Shown piece after piece: positions 4,449-17,941 of a DNA stretch of 64,000 nt. Origin of the DNA: Modestobacter marinus (GTDB lineage: Bacteria; Actinomycetota; Actinomycetes; Mycobacteriales; Geodermatophilaceae). The translations under genes were made by a program, and so were the position numbers. How positions within the stretch are numbered: the stretch's first letter is position 1; every line of letters begins with the position of its first letter. Under the pieces are notes generated by a model, which was not told where the DNA came from, did no database searches, and worked only from the letters and a program-made list of their open reading frames with translations. The stretch covers positions 3,100,001-3,164,000 of the forward strand of contig NZ_JAAMPA010000001.1 of the NCBI RefSeq assembly GCF_011758655.1. Reading direction: 5' to 3'.

Positions 4449-4523
4449 CGGTCATCACCTCTGTCGGTAGGGATCGGCGCAGGCCGAGGACGGGGTCCGG
4501 TCAAGGGAGCGTGTCGTCGCCGA

Positions 4524-4544
4524 CGCGGGACGGTGTGTCCCGCG
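4524..4544. other. Perfect hairpin in the sulfatase/regulator divergent region
   Basis: The arms cgcgggac and gtcccgcg flank a 5-base loop. It lies between the two divergent genes, about 80 bases upstream of the sulfatase start, so an operator or leader structure is as likely as anything else. The rest of 4449-4674 holds no gene; AT-richer sequence around 4618-4672 is where promoters would be expected. Confidence 0.4.
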
Positions 4545-4674
4545 GCCTGGCCGGTGCCCTGCGCACGGCCGGCTGAGTGCAGTCGCCGAGGTCACGTGTC
4601 AGGTGATCGGCGTCACACGAAAGGTAGAGCTTGTAGAGACGGTCGTCAACCGTGTGTCGAATGATGGTTTCTTG

Positions 4675-5629: not shown

Positions 5630-6697
5630 TCAGGCCGGGTCGGCCGCCTGCTTCTTCGCGCGGCTGGGCTGCACCCGCATCGGCTCGCCGGGCATCTTCG
5701 GGTAGTCCGGCGGATAGGGCATCTCGCCCAGCCCGAGGTCGCGCTCCTGCCGGTCGGCCAGCTCGACCAGGGGCGTGAGGTCGAAGGCGTGGTCGGCCAG
5801 GCCGGCGTGCTTGTCGCCGACGGCGGCGAAGCGGGCCGGCATGGTGCGGACGTCGAAGTCGAACGGCGACACGTCGGGCAGCTCGTCCCAGTCGACGGGG
5901 GCGCTCACCGGCGCGTGCGGCTTGGCCCGGATCGAGTAGGCGCTGGCGATCGTGCGGTCCCGGGCCATCTGGTTGTAGTCGATGAAGATCTTCTCGCCGC
6001 GCTCCTCCTTCCACCAGTTCATCGTGACCCGGTCGGGGATGCGCCGTTCCAGCTCGCGACCGAACGTGATCACCGCCCGGCGCACCTCGGGGAAGGTCCA
6101 GCGCGGCTGGATCGGCACGTAGACGTGCACGCCCCGGCCGCCGGAGGTCTTCGGCCAGCCCTCCATGCCGAACTCGTGCAGCAGCTCACGCACGTGCGGG
6201 GCCACCCAGACCGCGTCCGAGAAGTCGGTGCCCGGCTGCGGGTCGAGGTCGATCCGGATCTGGTCGGGGGACTCGACGTCGCCCTTGGACACCGGCCACG
6301 GGTGGAAGGTCAGCGTCCCGAGGTTGGCGCACCACGCGACGACGGCGACGGAGTCCGGGGCGATCTCGTCCGCGGTCCGCCCGCTGGGGAAGGTGATGTG
6401 CGCCGTCGGCACCCACGCGGGGGCGTTCTTCGGCACCCGCTTCTGGTAGAACGCGTCGCCGGTGTTGTCGACCCGGGTGGAGAGCCGGGCCCCCTCGAAC
6501 ACCCCACCGGGCCAGCGCTCCAGCGTCGTCGGCCGGTCCCGGAGGGCGAAGAGGATGCCCTCACCGACGGCGACGAAGTACTCGACGACGTCGATCTTGC
6601 GGACGCCGAGGTCGCCGAAGTACGGCTTCTCCGGGTTGCTCACCCGCACCTCGTGGCCGTCGAGCTCCAGGACGACGGCGTCCTTGCTGCTGGCCAT
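5630..6697 (-). CDS. Stand-alone LigD-type polymerase/primase domain
   Basis: Homologous to the polymerase domain of bacterial LigD, an archaeo-eukaryotic-primase-fold enzyme that fills ends with ribonucleotides during non-homologous end joining. Metal-binding RIDLDP gives Asp150 and Asp152, the phosphate-contact loop KTSGGRGVH covers 183-191, and FIDYNQ (238-243) supplies the third acidic residue. At 355 aa it has a short Pro/Lys/Ala tail, but no ligase or nuclease domain, so it is a single-domain version. A GGAG box lies four bases before the ATG. A LigC-type ligase is one gene away, but I see no ku gene in this window. Confidence 0.93.
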   Translation of the reverse strand: MASSKDAVVLELDGHEVRVSNPEKPYFGDLGVRKIDVVEYFVAVGEGILFALRDRPTTLERWPGGVFEGARLSTRVDNTGDAFYQKRVPKNAPAWVPTAHITFPSGRTADEIAPDSVAVVAWCANLGTLTFHPWPVSKGDVESPDQIRIDLDPQPGTDFSDAVWVAPHVRELLHEFGMEGWPKTSGGRGVHVYVPIQPRWTFPEVRRAVITFGRELERRIPDRVTMNWWKEERGEKIFIDYNQMARDRTIASAYSIRAKPHAPVSAPVDWDELPDVSPFDFDVRTMPARFAAVGDKHAGLADHAFDLTPLVELADRQERDLGLGEMPYPPDYPKMPGEPMRVQPSRAKKQAADPA

Positions 6698-6753: not shown

Positions 6754-8325
6754 TCACGCGGGGCAGGTCAGCCCGTCCTGCGGGACGGCGAGGTCGATCA
6801 GGTACGCGTTGACGGCCGCCGTCACGCACTCGGTCTTGGGGTAGGCGGTGTGTCCGCTGCCCTGCCAGGTGAGCAGCACCCCGTTCTCCAGCTCCTCGGC
6901 GAGGTCGACCGCGCCGCTCACCGGGGTGACCGGGTCGCCCTGCGTGCCGATGACCAGGATGGGCGGGCTGCCCGCGGCGTCCCGCTCGGGCAGGGGCGTG
7001 CGCGGGGCCTCCCAGGCCGAGCAGGTGTAGAGGCTCAGCGCGGCGTCGGCGCCGAAGAGCGGGTAGCGCGCGTTCCAGTCCGCGGCCAGTGCCTGCACGT
7101 CCGAGGCGCTGAACTCCTCGTCGGTGTCGGCGCAGTTCACCGCCAGGTTGGCGTCGACCACGTTGCTGTAGGTGCCGTCGTCGTTGCGGCCGGTGTAGGT
7201 GTCGGCCAGCGTCAGGATGCCGGCGGCGTCACCGTTGCGGGCGGCGGCCAGCGACTGGGCCAGCTGCGGCCACGCCGAGGGCTGGTAGAGCGCCGAGCGG
7301 ACCCCACCCAGGATCAGGCCGGGCGTCGCCTGGCGGGTCTCGCCCTCCCGGCTGCTGGGGATCGGGGCCGCGGCGGCCTGGGTGAGCAGCTCGCCCAGGA
7401 ACGCCCGCGGGTCGGGGCCGAGCGGGCAGCCGCTGATGAGCGACAGGCAGTTGGCGGCGAAGGCGTCGTACGCGGCCTCGAAGCCCTGGGCCTGCGCCTC
7501 GGCCGCCTCCTGCTCGGTGGCGTTCGGGTCGACCGCGCCGTCGAGCACCATCGCGCGCACCTGCTCGGGGAACAGCTCGGCGTAGGTGGAGCCCAGGGTC
7601 GTGCCGTACGAGTAGCCCAGGTAATTGAGCTGGTCGTCACCGAGGGACTGGCGGACCAGGTCCATGTCGCGGGCCGCGTCGACCGTGTTGAAGGCGCCGA
7701 GCGCCTCCTGGTACTCGTCGCTGCAGCCGGCCGCCACCTCCTCGATCTCGCTGAAGAGCGCGTCCTGGGCGGCGGCGTCGATGACCCGCGGGTCGGCGGC
7801 GAACAGCTCGTCCTTCTGCTCGTCGGAGATGCACTCGACGGGCGTGGACAGGCCCGAACCGCGCGGGTCGAGGCCGACGATGTCGAACTGGTTGACGATC
7901 GCCTCGGGGAGGGTCAGCGCCGCCTGGATGGCCGCATCGGCCGCGGACTGCCCGGGACCGCCGGGGTTCACGAACAGCGAGCCGATCGGGTAGGTCTGGC
8001 CGTTCAGGCTGGCCCGCACCAGGAACAGCTGCAGGGTGCCGCCCTCGGGGTCGTCGTAGCTGACCGGCACCGTCGTCGTCCCGCAGGAGAAGGTGAGGTC
8101 GCGCTCCGAACCGGGCCGCCCGGCGATGATCGGGTCGATCTCGCTGTCGCAGTCGGTCCAGTCGATCAGCTGCGCCTCCGGCTCGGCCGGCGCCTCGGTG
8201 GTGGAGCCGGCCGCGGCCGTCTCGCCCTCGCCCTCGCCCTCGCCGGAGGAGGTGCACCCGGCGAGGGTCAGGGCGAGAGCGAGGACAGCTCCTCCGGTGG
8301 CGGTGAGGCGGTGGCGCGCGGTCAT
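6754..8325 (-). CDS. Lipoprotein alpha/beta hydrolase, tripeptidyl-aminopeptidase (TAP) type
   Basis: A 523-aa serine hydrolase related to the secreted tripeptidyl aminopeptidases of Streptomyces. The N-terminus is a lipoprotein signal with lipobox LAGC (Cys24), then a Gly/Glu/Thr spacer. The nucleophile elbow is GYSYGT, the oxyanion region is NPGGPG, and the C-terminal TAP-like domain carries IGTQGDPVTP (Asp) and GSGHTAYPK (His). The ATG at 8325 is preferred over the in-frame TTG at 8334 because a TACCCT -10 box (minus strand, 8334-8339) would place the mRNA start at or next to the ATG. It probably trims peptides outside the membrane. Substrate unknown. Confidence 0.9.
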   Translation of the reverse strand: MTARHRLTATGGAVLALALTLAGCTSSGEGEGEGETAAAGSTTEAPAEPEAQLIDWTDCDSEIDPIIAGRPGSERDLTFSCGTTTVPVSYDDPEGGTLQLFLVRASLNGQTYPIGSLFVNPGGPGQSAADAAIQAALTLPEAIVNQFDIVGLDPRGSGLSTPVECISDEQKDELFAADPRVIDAAAQDALFSEIEEVAAGCSDEYQEALGAFNTVDAARDMDLVRQSLGDDQLNYLGYSYGTTLGSTYAELFPEQVRAMVLDGAVDPNATEQEAAEAQAQGFEAAYDAFAANCLSLISGCPLGPDPRAFLGELLTQAAAAPIPSSREGETRQATPGLILGGVRSALYQPSAWPQLAQSLAAARNGDAAGILTLADTYTGRNDDGTYSNVVDANLAVNCADTDEEFSASDVQALAADWNARYPLFGADAALSLYTCSAWEAPRTPLPERDAAGSPPILVIGTQGDPVTPVSGAVDLAEELENGVLLTWQGSGHTAYPKTECVTAAVNAYLIDLAVPQDGLTCPA

Positions 8326-8434: not shown

Positions 8435-9508
8435 TCATCCGCCCAGGACCTCGGCGAGGTCGTAGTGGACCGGGACCTCCAGCTGCTCGTAGGTGCACGA
8501 CCGTGCGTCCCGGTCGGGACGCCAGCGCAGGAAGTGGCCGGTGTGCCGCAGCCGGCTGCCCTCCAGCTGGTCGTACTTGATCTCCACCACCAGCTCCGGC
8601 CGCAGCGGCACCCAGGAGAGGTCCTTGCCGGCGTTCCAGCGGCTGGTCGCCCCGGGCATCCGGTGTTCGCCGTCCTCGCCCGTCTGGGCGTTGGCCCAGT
8701 CCTGCCAGGGGTGCCCGTCCAGCGCCTCGGCCCGGTAGGGGGCGAGCTCCTCGACCAGCTCGGCCCGGCGCTTCATCGAGAAGGACGCCGCGACGCCGAT
8801 GTGCTGCAGGGTGCCGGCGTCGTCGTAGAGGCCCAGCAGCAGCGAGCCGACCACCGGACCGCTCTTGTGCCAGCGGAAGCCGGCGACCACGCAGTCCGCC
8901 GTCCGGACGTGCTTGACCTTGGTCATCACCCGCTGGTCGGGGGAGTAGGGCTGGTCGCCGCGCTTGGCGATCACCCCGTCCAGGCCGGCGCCCTCGAACT
9001 CGCCGAACCAGCGCTGACCCACCTCGACGTCGGAGGTGACGGTGCTGACGTACACCGGCGCCTGCGCGCCGGCCAGCGCCTCGCGCAGCCTGGCCTGGCG
9101 CTCGGCGTACGGGGTCTCCAGGAGCGAGTCGTCCCCGAGCGCCAGCAGGTCGAAGGCGACGAAGGACGCCGGAGTCTCCGCGGCCAGCCGGGTCACCCGC
9201 GAGGCGGCCGGGTGGATCCGCTGCAGCAGCGACTCGAAGTCCAGCCGGTCACCACGCGGGACGATGATCTCGCCGTCGACGACGCACCGCTCGGGCAGCT
9301 GGGCCTTCACCGCCTCGACGACGTCGGGGAAGTAGCGGGTCAGCGGGCGCTCGTTGCGGCTGCCCAGCTCGACCTCGTCGCCGTCCCGGAAGACGATGCA
9401 CCGGAACCCGTCCCACTTCGGCTCGTAGAACCAGCCGTCGCCGGTGGGCAGCGTCGCCACCGGCTTGGCGAGCATCGGCTTGACCGGGGGGTTCACGGGC
9501 AGGTCCAT
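8435..9508 (-). CDS. ATP-dependent DNA ligase, LigC type
   Basis: A 357-aa ligase with the nucleotidyltransferase core and OB-fold only. Motif I is EPKWDGFR with the AMP-accepting Lys31; motif III-like FVAFDLLAL, motif IV DGVIAKR and motif V ELVVEIKYDQ follow in order. LigC enzymes seal nicks in a NAD-independent way and take part in base-excision repair and back-up end joining. I prefer the ATG at 9508 to the TTG four codons upstream. The start is only three bases from a long hairpin (9512-9552), which leaves little space for an ordinary promoter. Confidence 0.94.
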   Translation of the reverse strand: MDLPVNPPVKPMLAKPVATLPTGDGWFYEPKWDGFRCIVFRDGDEVELGSRNERPLTRYFPDVVEAVKAQLPERCVVDGEIIVPRGDRLDFESLLQRIHPAASRVTRLAAETPASFVAFDLLALGDDSLLETPYAERQARLREALAGAQAPVYVSTVTSDVEVGQRWFGEFEGAGLDGVIAKRGDQPYSPDQRVMTKVKHVRTADCVVAGFRWHKSGPVVGSLLLGLYDDAGTLQHIGVAASFSMKRRAELVEELAPYRAEALDGHPWQDWANAQTGEDGEHRMPGATSRWNAGKDLSWVPLRPELVVEIKYDQLEGSRLRHTGHFLRWRPDRDARSCTYEQLEVPVHYDLAEVLGG

Positions 9509-9511
9509 GGC

Positions 9512-9552
9512 CCCAGTCAAGCAGCCACTAACAAGCGCGGCTGTTGACTGGG
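9512..9552 (-). terminator. Hairpin at the end of the AIPR insert
   Basis: Left arm cccagtcaa-g-cagcc (9512-9526) pairs with ggctgttgactggg (9539-9552), giving 14 base pairs with a single bulged G and a 12-base loop. It lies 10 bases past the AIPR stop codon and directly before the ligase ATG. It is a probable terminator and marks the edge between AT-richer and GC-rich DNA. Confidence 0.7.
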
Positions 9553-9562
9553 ACCATAGGTA

Positions 9563-11293
9563 TCAGTAGTTAGAGCGTGGACGACGCGTGACCTGACGCA
9601 CGTGACCGCGCAGTTGCCTCGTAGCTTCAGCTAGCAGTGCCCGCGTCACACTTTCGCTTTTGGCTATCTGGTCGAGCAGATAAGTCCGCGTGCGCCGAGA
9701 CTCAATATCGTACTGGGTTCGCAGAATCTCATATTGCGTACCGAGCAGCGAAGTCTCGAGCGTGGTGGACTCTAGTTTTGCCAGGTCCTGCGTTGATGGC
9801 TTTTGCTTGCGCGTCGCGGCAATGACCGCCAGCATAGCGAGTTGGAAGCGAAAATCCTCGGCTCCCTCAGCGCGGACGGATCGAAGGTACTCGTCGCATT
9901 GACGCATCACCTCAATGGCTGCCGCGTACATTTGTACCTGGAACTCTGTACTGAAGGCAAAGTCGTAGATCTCCGGCTCAAAGACGCGGCTAGGTGTTGC
10001 TCTCGCAATGTGTGGCACCTGCACAAGCGTGCTGAGGAGTGCTTGACCCATGCTGTCGATAGAAACAATCCTATCCATGGGTCGCCCCTCATTGTAGTAC
10101 TGGCGGCGTCGCCTCTCATAAAAGAACCCGCGAGTCAGGAGATAGTCCTCAATCTGCCTCTGCACTTTATCTGTCGCCCGTAGAGCAGACGGGCCGAAGG
10201 ATGTCTGACTGTTGGTTGCTCGAATGATGCGCTCCCGAACAGCGGAGTCGTTCGCCTGGATGATCTTGACCAGGACGGAGCGCTCGTCTGACGGGTCGTG
10301 GGGGCTGCGACTGCGCTTATGAATCTCTGTTGATGTTTGCAGGCCGTTGACAATCTGTGGAGATTCCAGCTTTAGCAATTTGTTGGCTAGCTGAACCTCC
10401 GATGCCACGATGGTCACTCCATTGTTCAGCCACCAGAAGTCAACATCCGGATCAGAGGTCGATAGGGTTTTCTCAATGCTTTGATTGACCGCGGTTTCGC
10501 CCTCGTAGTCGCGCACGTTGGCCTCAAATAGCGAAGTGTCCAATTCCCCTGTCTTGGTGCTGATGAATGATTGATAGTCATCGAGACGAGCCACCCCGAT
10601 GTAGCCACCGGCTGTGTCGGTAGATATGGGGTTCTCGGATAGCTGCAGGTTGTGCGTGGTCACCTGCGATTCGCGCGCCAGATCGTAGAGGCTACTTGCG
10701 TCCATGAATTGAACATGTACAGGGCAGTCGCCAAAGAGGGACGTGCACACTGTCTTCAGGTGGCCCGCTTTGGCGTTCGTGTTCTCGTGCAAGTGAGTGG
10801 CTTTCAAGCTAGCGAAGGCGACATACACGTGAAGTTCTGGCATGTCCAGTTCGCGGTATGCATTCAAGAACCGTCGAGTCGATTCGATAACGCGCGAATT
10901 GGCGAAACTGAGCAGCGTTTGTTCGTTCCGATCAAACGTGAGAAGCCGTGGGAGATTGACGATCAGCTTGTCGATAGCCTCCTCGCCGAAACCCTTGGAG
11001 TCTTTCACTTGAAGAAGGGTTAACTCCAACTTCGCACGCTTGCCTAGGGCTGGCAGTGGAGTGTCATCACTCAAGCAGATGCCGTTGGCGAACACGTAGA
11101 TCGCGTCAAGGCCACAGTCCTTCTCGCCGTCCACGATACCGCTGATGGTCTCTTCAGGGCTGATACCAGTGCTCTTAAGATACTGTTCTGCCACCCAGTA
11201 GGTGTTGTGGTCGTCATCTGATAGCTGTTGTCGCGTTTGATCGCGACTCTTCGACAGAAGACCTTGTAGAAGCACAACTGCGTTCGCGTTCAC
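9563..11293 (-). CDS. AIPR family protein (abortive infection phage resistance)
   Basis: A 576-aa protein of the AIPR family, proteins linked to abortive phage defence. Visible family blocks are LFEANVRDYEG (255-265), WWLNNGVTI (287-295), IVNGLQTS (314-321) and RATNSQT (358-364). The N-terminus has GLDA (Asp63) followed by LLQVK (Gln95, Lys97), a spacing and pattern like the PD-(D/E)xK nuclease core, as in the 'IQSK' segment of other AIPR proteins. The GTG at 11293 is the first sensible start; a TTG at 11371 is an alternative and neither has a good ribosome site. Base composition is strikingly lower in GC than all neighbours, with AT-ending codons common, so it was probably acquired. No partner gene is present. 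Confidence 0.88.
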   Translation of the reverse strand: MNANAVVLLQGLLSKSRDQTRQQLSDDDHNTYWVAEQYLKSTGISPEETISGIVDGEKDCGLDAIYVFANGICLSDDTPLPALGKRAKLELTLLQVKDSKGFGEEAIDKLIVNLPRLLTFDRNEQTLLSFANSRVIESTRRFLNAYRELDMPELHVYVAFASLKATHLHENTNAKAGHLKTVCTSLFGDCPVHVQFMDASSLYDLARESQVTTHNLQLSENPISTDTAGGYIGVARLDDYQSFISTKTGELDTSLFEANVRDYEGETAVNQSIEKTLSTSDPDVDFWWLNNGVTIVASEVQLANKLLKLESPQIVNGLQTSTEIHKRSRSPHDPSDERSVLVKIIQANDSAVRERIIRATNSQTSFGPSALRATDKVQRQIEDYLLTRGFFYERRRRQYYNEGRPMDRIVSIDSMGQALLSTLVQVPHIARATPSRVFEPEIYDFAFSTEFQVQMYAAAIEVMRQCDEYLRSVRAEGAEDFRFQLAMLAVIAATRKQKPSTQDLAKLESTTLETSLLGTQYEILRTQYDIESRRTRTYLLDQIAKSESVTRALLAEATRQLRGHVRQVTRRPRSNY

Positions 11294-11427
11294 GGGGCCC
11301 CCAAGAGAAGCGAATCGACCTAACCTCGCCTGCGACGAGCGAGCACTCAGGCTAAGCGACGCCTCCGACAAGTTGCGGTAGGTCGGCGTCCAGTCGCGAA
11401 GAAGAGGGAGCGCGGTGCTCCACGAAC

Positions 11428-12150
11428 CTAAGTCTGCTGGGGTGCGAATAGCCAGCGGGTGAAGAGGGCGCCATTCTCTTCCAGCACTTGGGCCAGCTCC
11501 GCCGCCGCGGGGGTGGGCAGTGCATGTGGCAGCAGGCCGGGGCCGCCGCCGACGAGCAGCGGGGCGAGGGTCAGGTCCAGCTCGTCGACCACCCCGGCGG
11601 CGAGCGCGGCGGCGAAGAGCGCCGGCCCGCCCTCGCACAGCACCTGCTCGAGGCCACGCGCGGCCAGGGCGTCGAGCGCGGTCGGCAGGTCGACGTCGTC
11701 GTCGCCGCAGACCACCACCTCGACGCCGGCGGCGGTGAGCGCTGAACGCCGGTCGGCGTCGGCCGCGGCGCAGGTGACGAGCAGCGTCGGGGTGACCGCA
11801 CCGGTGACCAGCTGGTCGTCGGGGGCCAGCGAGGCCCGCCGGGACACGATCGCCACCGGGGCGACCGGTGGGCGGCCGAGCTCGGTGCGCAGCCGGCCGA
11901 CGGCGGAGTCGGGGAGCACCGGCCGGTAGCCCTCGGCCGCCGCCGTCCCGGCGCCCACCAGCACCGCGTCGGCCAGCGCGCGCAGCATCCGGAACACCCG
12001 CCGGTCGCCGTCCGAGCCCAGCCCGCCGCTGCGCCCGTCGACGCTGATGGCGCCGTCCAGCGCGGCGACGAAGTTCACCCGCAGGTGCCGGCCGGCCGGC
12101 GCGCGGTAGGCGTCGGCCAGGCCGGCAGGGTCCCGGGGGAGCAGCGCCAC
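11428..12150 (-). CDS. Pyrimidine reductase family protein (RibD C-terminal / DHFR fold)
   Basis: A 240-aa protein with the RibD reductase fold, which in riboflavin synthesis reduces the ribosyl-aminouracil ring with NADPH. Typical blocks are RVNFVAALDGAIS near residue 25, DAVLVGAGTA (about 61-70) and LCEGGPALFAALL-like LCEGGPALFAA near 170. There is no deaminase domain, and no rib genes are close by, so the substrate may differ. The GTG start lies two bases after the treZ stop codon, which suggests translational coupling. The stop is followed directly by low-GC DNA of the AIPR insert. Confidence 0.85.
   Translation of the reverse strand: MALLPRDPAGLADAYRAPAGRHLRVNFVAALDGAISVDGRSGGLGSDGDRRVFRMLRALADAVLVGAGTAAAEGYRPVLPDSAVGRLRTELGRPPVAPVAIVSRRASLAPDDQLVTGAVTPTLLVTCAAADADRRSALTAAGVEVVVCGDDDVDLPTALDALAARGLEQVLCEGGPALFAAALAAGVVDELDLTLAPLLVGGGPGLLPHALPTPAAAELAQVLEENGALFTRWLFAPQQT

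Positions 12151-17148: not shown

Positions 17149-17941
<793 letters not shown>

Follow-up and report, generated by a model that had tools for sequence, protein, structure and literature searches.

Why does a gene of markedly lower GC content stand between a ribD-like and a ligC-like gene of Modestobacter marinus, and what could its product do? In the 64-kb stretch of DNA analysed here (the window), the GC content drops from about 0.73 on both sides to 0.54–0.56 over positions ~9.5–11.45 kb (1-kb windows). The resulting insert has a GC content of about 0.55, 19 points under the rest of the window, and the lowest other 1734-bp segment sampled in 100-base steps has 0.668. At the three codon positions its gene has GC contents of 0.59, 0.41 and 0.64, with the third position reaching 0.94–0.98 in seven other window genes; its codon-use distance from these seven is 12.6, as against 1.7–5.5 for each of the seven. 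A first-pass annotation of this DNA had described a low-GC segment with deviant codon use amid GC-rich genes, and both descriptions hold. The features of the locus are:

9527 to 11451, no strand assigned: horizontally acquired insert of about 1.9 kb, placed by the GC profile and the ribD–ligC junctions of 18 relatives
9563 to 11296, minus strand: AbiU/AIPR-family gene with GTG start, 577 aa, identified by PADLOC AbiU and Pfam AIPR, start set from homologues
11428 to 12150, minus strand: RibD_C-domain gene (Pfam PF01872), left flank, its last 7 codons and stop supplied by the insert
8435 to 9508, minus strand: LigC-like ATP-dependent DNA ligase gene (Pfam PF01068/PF04679), right flank, which we take to be ligC
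9514 to 9526, minus strand: GGCTGCTTGACTG, 5' leader element of ligC, from a comparison of ligC upstream regions
9505 to 9559, minus strand: hairpin on the right edge of the insert, with a distal arm that repeats the ligC leader and start region in inverted orientation

The insert stands in place of the ribD end and the native ribD–ligC spacer. Its left edge lies near 11451, since comparison with the relatives shows the RibD gene to end in seven foreign codons and a foreign stop (C-terminus FTRW-LFAPQQT* here, for example FTRYALR* there), and its right edge at ~9527, since the conserved ligC leader resumes at 9526. The segment itself, previously delimited as 9511–11427, is thus real but has shifted limits. 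It holds a single AIPR-family gene, as had been noted, and the only further ORFs of at least 100 aa are two antisense frames of 126 and 123 aa. No other sense-strand ORF of that length was found in the insert, and no integrase was seen; a tRNA scan of the window was negative, and no direct repeat exceeded the shuffles within 500 bp of the AIPR gene. The ORF list, tRNA scan and repeat test agree with the earlier description of the edges, and an intact integrative element was rejected on these grounds. The DNA would have entered the ribD–ligC junction by illegitimate recombination, or within an element since eroded, integrase, tRNA and att repeats having gone undetected.

At the right edge, one arm of the hairpin is the native ligC leader. 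An inverted copy of this leader lies in the insert just past it and extends through the ligC start codon, and the hairpin spans the ligC ATG (9506–9508). It has a folding energy of -43.5 kcal/mol (z -7.9), and equally strong folds occur in 392 of 18,266 same-size windows (2.1%) of this GC-rich sequence. Since so many windows fold equally well and the hairpin is not among the T-tailed terminator-like sites predicted in the window, a terminator role is not established. An intrinsic terminator was rejected for want of such a T-tail, and a mobile-element end because one arm is the native leader. Hence, the hairpin at which the insert was said to end does exist, but it is no canonical terminator and half of it belongs to ligC. 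That it terminates AIPR transcripts, or hides the start of ligC on read-through RNA, is only a guess. Among 17 testable junctions the window alone has an inverted copy above shuffles (0/16 of the others with enough spacer).

In 17 of 18 relatives the 40 bases preceding ligC contain the core CTGCTTGACT, of which G006 has a variant. The core is kept just before the ligC ATG even where it overlaps the ribD end (G013, G005), and is possibly a leaderless promoter or another regulatory site. The 13-mer GGCTGCTTGACTG was dismissed as a repeated element, the genome containing one exact copy. Beside the insert, a LigD-type primase-polymerase gene (5630–6697) lies near the LigC-like ligase gene (8435–9508); the two are perhaps an end-joining or repair pair. 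Elsewhere in the window, a c-di-AMP (ydaO) riboswitch (17763–17936, minus strand; Rfam RF00379, 44.5 bits) precedes a minus-strand gene (17149–17760) labelled from its sequence as secreted, LysM-containing and resuscitation-factor-like.

The AIPR gene is rare among relatives. In the genus it was found in 1 of 23 genomes, or 1 of 18 when those less than 90% complete are set aside; the family yielded it in 3 of 112 genomes and a sample of the class in 12 of 394. One of the two other family carriers is, by coordinates, a Blastococcus mobilis contig. The first-pass annotation had named presence of the gene in all relatives with matching codon use as the outcome that would speak against a foreign insert, and these genus and family counts are incompatible with that outcome. 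The neighbours, on the other hand, are common, a RibD_C gene and a LigC-like gene each being present in 21 of the 23 genus genomes. The empty-site comparison proposed earlier was carried out on the 19 genomes, this one included, that have both neighbours on one contig among the stretches extracted. Near-empty sites, with a ribD–ligC gap of 4–188 bp, were found in 7 of the 19, and gaps of 0.6–5.5 kb in the other 12, among them this genome. Its gap is the sole AT-rich long one (GC 0.555), the 11 others having 0.72–0.79. The gene is horizontally acquired.

Different relatives carry different genes at this position. DUF222 genes (Pfam) are found in G019, G021, G004 and G008, the last also holding a NUDIX and a luciferase-like gene; further cargo comprises a GNAT gene in G003, an Imm5-like gene in G019 and an MMPL transporter in G009, and a DUF222-like protein of G002 had no Pfam match at 1e-4. 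Across the junction loci L056–L073 the cargo varies by species or amounts to almost nothing. On a LigC+RibD tree the six cargo labels, assigned by hand, partly from translations and with some ORFs lacking a Pfam scan, need 7 changes compared with a mean of 11.0 in shuffles. The poorly resolved group around this genome contains both empty and DUF222 sites. The differing cargo and this mixture show that the junction is variable; from this one junction, we do not call it a defence hotspot.

Does the low GC content point to a low-GC donor? For an answer, 95 loci of relatives were fetched, for which the best 80 of 408 AIPR-encoding genome stretches were kept. An uninterrupted frame in the matched stretch was present in 88 of the 95; the seven with a stop there (L117, L119, L120, L131, L147, L157, L164) were left out. 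Of the 88, 86 (71 genome loci and 15 viral contigs) were usable for the GC comparison, two with short flanks being dropped. All 86 AIPR genes have a lower GC content than their flanks, the mean difference being -10.5 points (range -2 to -30), and in 57 of 70 genome loci the gene lies under every same-length flank window sampled. Such AT-richness relative to the flanks may be general to accessory genes. AIPR proteins occur in bacteria and archaea, and the ten nearest kin among the best 80 of the 408 stretches are 45–56% identical and all from Actinomycetota, of several families. Because of this family-wide AT-richness and the actinobacterial kin, GC content does not point to a low-GC donor, and an origin in a low-GC phylum was discarded. 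The earlier reading as a foreign, low-GC insert thus stands as to foreign origin but not as to what the low GC signifies.

In an AIPR tree of 43 of the 87 aligned sequences, a Blastococcus and a Dactylosporangium copy pair with support of 100/100, and the gene therefore crosses family lines. A second Dactylosporangium copy groups with the window gene (100/98); both have long branches, and their pairing may be an artefact of these. In path length and in identity, the window gene is closest to the Blastococcus copy. The pattern fits transfer among actinobacteria.

Low GC content also invites a simpler explanation, namely a recent acquisition that is silent, the AT-rich DNA being shut by a xenogeneic silencer and without present function. 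The 19-point GC deficit is in keeping with this, as is the observation that the sole sigma-70-like site found (0.6 expected), in a search for sigma-70-like promoters only, lies inside the AIPR gene. However, the frame is unbroken over 577 codons and every family-invariant residue is present. Moreover, the GC content of AIPR genes tracks that of their flanks across phyla (r = 0.89 for the 86 relatives kept), so that these genes seem to have been resident long enough to ameliorate. We regard a silent newcomer as rather unlikely.

The family assignment itself is clear. The protein matches the PADLOC AbiU profile, which has no stated cut-off, over positions 2–535 of 537 (E 8.9e-157, 521.5 bits) and Pfam AIPR (PF10592) with 139.9 bits against a cut-off of 25 (E 1.8e-40); the 5.1-Mb genome has no other AIPR match. 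An ORF start at 11638 was rejected, since the homologues begin at the GTG at 11296. As an observation it is mostly ordinary, a defence family already known turning up at a new location, with phage defence as the candidate function.

Like AbiU/AIPR systems (PADLOC AbiU, PF10592; prototype AbiU1 of Lactococcus), the window gene aligns with the full-length AbiU profile and is a single gene, these being found alone or near restriction genes. It differs in belonging to an actinobacterial clade that is 28–33% identical to plasmid-borne homologues of Lactococcus, Loigolactobacillus, Bacillus and Serratia. The lactococcal system, in a passage of PMC3985639, consists of abiU1 plus abiU2, and a second gene was not seen here; a reference there dates the description of AbiU to 2001. 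Part of the AIPR core also aligns to MzaE of the MZA system (NCBIfam NF041935, E 2.2e-7). The score of 29.8 bits against a cut-off of 1050, together with neighbours that are ribD- and ligC-like genes, places the window gene outside MZA. Passages of two further papers name AIPR among the domains of P4-satellite systems (PMC9122126) and report that in Salmonella 61% of AbiU carriers have it together with a prophage integrase (PMC9958689). A literature search of partial coverage found no experimental mechanism for AIPR proteins.

Predicted structure offers a more specific proposal. The full-length AlphaFold model has a pLDDT of 89.6 and a pTM of 0.81, and was divided into three regions:

10661 to 11296, minus strand: predicted PD-(D/E)XK nuclease domain, residues 1–212, from conservation in 87 sequences and VIA
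10193 to 10660, minus strand: predicted ParB/Srx-fold nucleotide-binding module, residues 213–368, from VIA on a model of the C-terminal half
9566 to 10192, minus strand: helical C-terminal region, residues 369–577, from the AlphaFold models, no fold assigned

Conservation was assessed in alignment A2, comprising 86 loci and the window (87 sequences), from which the partial L156 and L177, a near-copy of L176, had been excluded. Among the first 212 residues, Asp60, Asp64 and Lys98 are the sole invariant ones (87/87), and Gln96 and Glu105 are each kept in 85 of 87; the search patterns that located the loci include none of these five columns. Alignment A1 (the window and 12 homologues, mostly from other searches), which overlaps A2 in at least one gene, L045 being L097, likewise has all five invariant. 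The third motif position is thus Gln in 85 of 87 sequences instead of the usual Asp or Glu of (D/E)xK; Gln variants of the D...(D/E/Q)xK signature exist in the PD-(D/E)XK superfamily.

The modelled N-terminal domain is mixed alpha/beta, and VIA matched it best to FokI (Z 9.2, rmsd 3.2, 138 residues aligned) and next to MspJI (Z 7.8), where models without a clear match typically reach a best Z of 7 to 8 according to the tool's note. With the whole model FokI alone exceeds Z 8. EcoT38I (5.5), a CdiA-type nuclease (5.2) and Card1 (5.1) weigh little, since unrelated proteins (RNA polymerase subunits, a glutaminase) are mixed in from Z 5.2 downwards. VIA shows only chains ranked high by Foldseek, so that unlisted folds (HEPN, DndB and others) are not thereby excluded. 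Plain Foldseek at E <= 0.001 returned no match for the whole model or the C-half model, Pfam none for the N-terminal domain alone up to E 10, and neither sequence-profile searches against solved nucleases or ParB nor PDB sequence searches gave a match. Both the D60/D64/K98 signature and, in the model and its VIA matches, the alpha-beta restriction-endonuclease fold were found, and residues 1–212 are predicted to form a PD-(D/E)XK nuclease domain. It shares with FokI and MspJI the resemblance of the catalytic domain and differs in the Gln of the third motif and in that no FokI- or MspJI-type recognition domain was matched.

A different activity is in the literature. HEPN RNases need an R-x4-6-H motif. 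If AIPR proteins were such RNases, killing or arresting the infected cell, the nuclease resemblance would be incidental. Makarova et al. (2012; PMC3506569) link AIPR to restriction systems, assign a HEPN RNase to the AIPR N-terminus and place the N-terminal domain of DndB with AIPR. One histidine, His170, is indeed kept in 74 of 87 homologues, but the list of conserved columns holds no Arg 5–7 residues before it, and no His occurs in any invariant or >=90% column of the 87 sequences. The modelled domain is, in addition, mixed alpha/beta with restriction nucleases as best matches. A HEPN-type RNase is therefore highly improbable to us, and the predicted PD-(D/E)XK plus ParB/Srx architecture is at odds with the published assignment. 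A nuclease joined to AIPR has been published for at least one protein: a passage of PMC9708380 mentions a PoNe (PD-(D/E)xK) domain in an AIPR protein. That passage concerns another gene and gives no ParB-like fold.

Residues 213–368 make up the initial portion of the region matched by Pfam AIPR. The C-half model has a pLDDT of 92.9, and its VIA matches include ParB-CDP (Z 6.5), Srx (5.8), PadC (5.8) and SspE (4.8). Of the 18 top rows, 17 are ParB, Noc, KorB, PadC, Srx, SspE or BrxU (Z 4.0–6.5), a BrxU row among them having an rmsd of 13.8; the 18th is an uncharacterised protein and the next row has Z 3.4. The ParB rows fall in a range where a match may reflect a common arrangement, and since neither Foldseek nor sequence profiles matched significantly, it is consistency that the ParB assignment depends on. 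The NNG/VNGLQTS core may, as a guess, take part in nucleotide binding. PMC12704722 surveys ParB-CTPase folds and describes a DndB-like protein that binds ATP/GTP; its main text does not use the word AIPR.

SspE and GmrSD/BrxU carry their nuclease at the C-terminus, and it is HNH-type. These type IV restriction proteins resemble the modelled window protein in joining a ParB-type fold and a nuclease in one chain (VIA Z 4.8 for SspE, 4.0–4.7 for BrxU, the BrxU alignments having rmsd 10–14). In the window protein, the predicted nuclease would instead be an N-terminal PD-(D/E)XK domain, and no significant sequence similarity to them was found.

The ParB/Srx-type fold also suits a regulator, that is, an NTP-binding repressor like DndB with a dead nuclease site, left as the orphan of a lost modification system. 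Makarova's grouping of DndB with AIPR (PMC3506569) and nucleotide binding by the DndB-like protein (PMC12704722) are consistent with this. Against it, every residue that is invariant in the N-terminal domain is of catalytic type, which argues for an active enzyme, and no recurrent modification genes were found among the scanned neighbours of the relatives. We consider such a repressor distinctly unlikely.

Genomic context bears on whether the protein would act alone. Of the ten closest homologues (among the best 80 of 408), one is flanked by a GmrSD gene on either side and another is next to an AbiJ-type gene; one adjoins a TrwC relaxase, one a resolvase, and one is near a DUF222/HNH gene. The scanned neighbours of the remaining ones are ordinary or without family. 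A broader set, A3, contained 135 of 136 script-picked proteins from 73 AIPR loci; one long L154 protein was omitted, and one L094 neighbour was swapped for a GmrSD gene one step further out. No PADLOC family occurs in more than 2 of the 135 neighbours and no Pfam family in more than 3, and the GmrSD count of 2 stems from one locus, partly hand-chosen. Defence neighbours are sparse. With no family more frequent than this in the uncontrolled survey, there is no fixed partner, and a conserved partner gene was discarded. A single-protein scan of genome contigs, covering 57 stretches, returned no relatives.

Direct repeats flank the AIPR gene within 2.5 kb at 7 of 69 loci, compared with 4 of 124 shifted controls (Fisher p = 0.057). 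Two Streptomyces loci have one of their repeat copies overlapping a tRNA gene: tRNA-Gly at L123 (repeats 4474–4569 and 7109–7204), where a weak, below-cut-off phage-integrase fragment lies beside the AIPR gene, and tRNA-Pro at L127. In the Nocardioides zeae locus a 112-bp repeat (L096, 4688–4799 and 6746–6857) contains an inverted repeat as well as the end of the upstream gene. Lone AIPR genes between direct repeats were also seen at L149 and L097. Because of the tRNA overlaps and the upstream gene end, some lone AIPR genes look like remains of integrative elements, and the loci concerned are possibly minimal, decayed integrative defence elements. The window insert has no such repeat, tRNA or integrase trace.

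We put the probability at roughly 0.55 that the window gene encodes a horizontally acquired, stand-alone AbiU/AIPR anti-phage protein whose PD-(D/E)XK nuclease is controlled via a ParB-like domain. The nuclease would be held in check, or triggered, by nucleotide binding in this domain; a DNA or protein cue at the same domain is an alternative trigger. Upon phage infection the protein would cut DNA, either that of the phage alone, as in type-IV-like restriction, or that of the host too, which would amount to abortive infection. It would act as a single chain, no fixed partner gene having been found.

What this locus adds is a concrete proposal for a mechanism, a corrected low-GC argument and the variability of the ribD–ligC junction. 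More tentatively, and with slightly less than an even chance in our estimate, AbiU/AIPR proteins would form a large unrecognised class of single-chain, NTP-gated endonucleases, with a FokI-like nuclease and a ParB-type switch arranged as a mirror image of SspE/GmrSD. The HEPN-RNase label would then be wrong for this clade, and the gene would travel on its own from one actinobacterial family to another, in part as the final cargo left in decayed integrative elements. With Asp64 and Lys98 proposed for cutting and the NNG/VNGLQTS core as further target, the named residues make the old AbiU/AIPR question testable by mutants.
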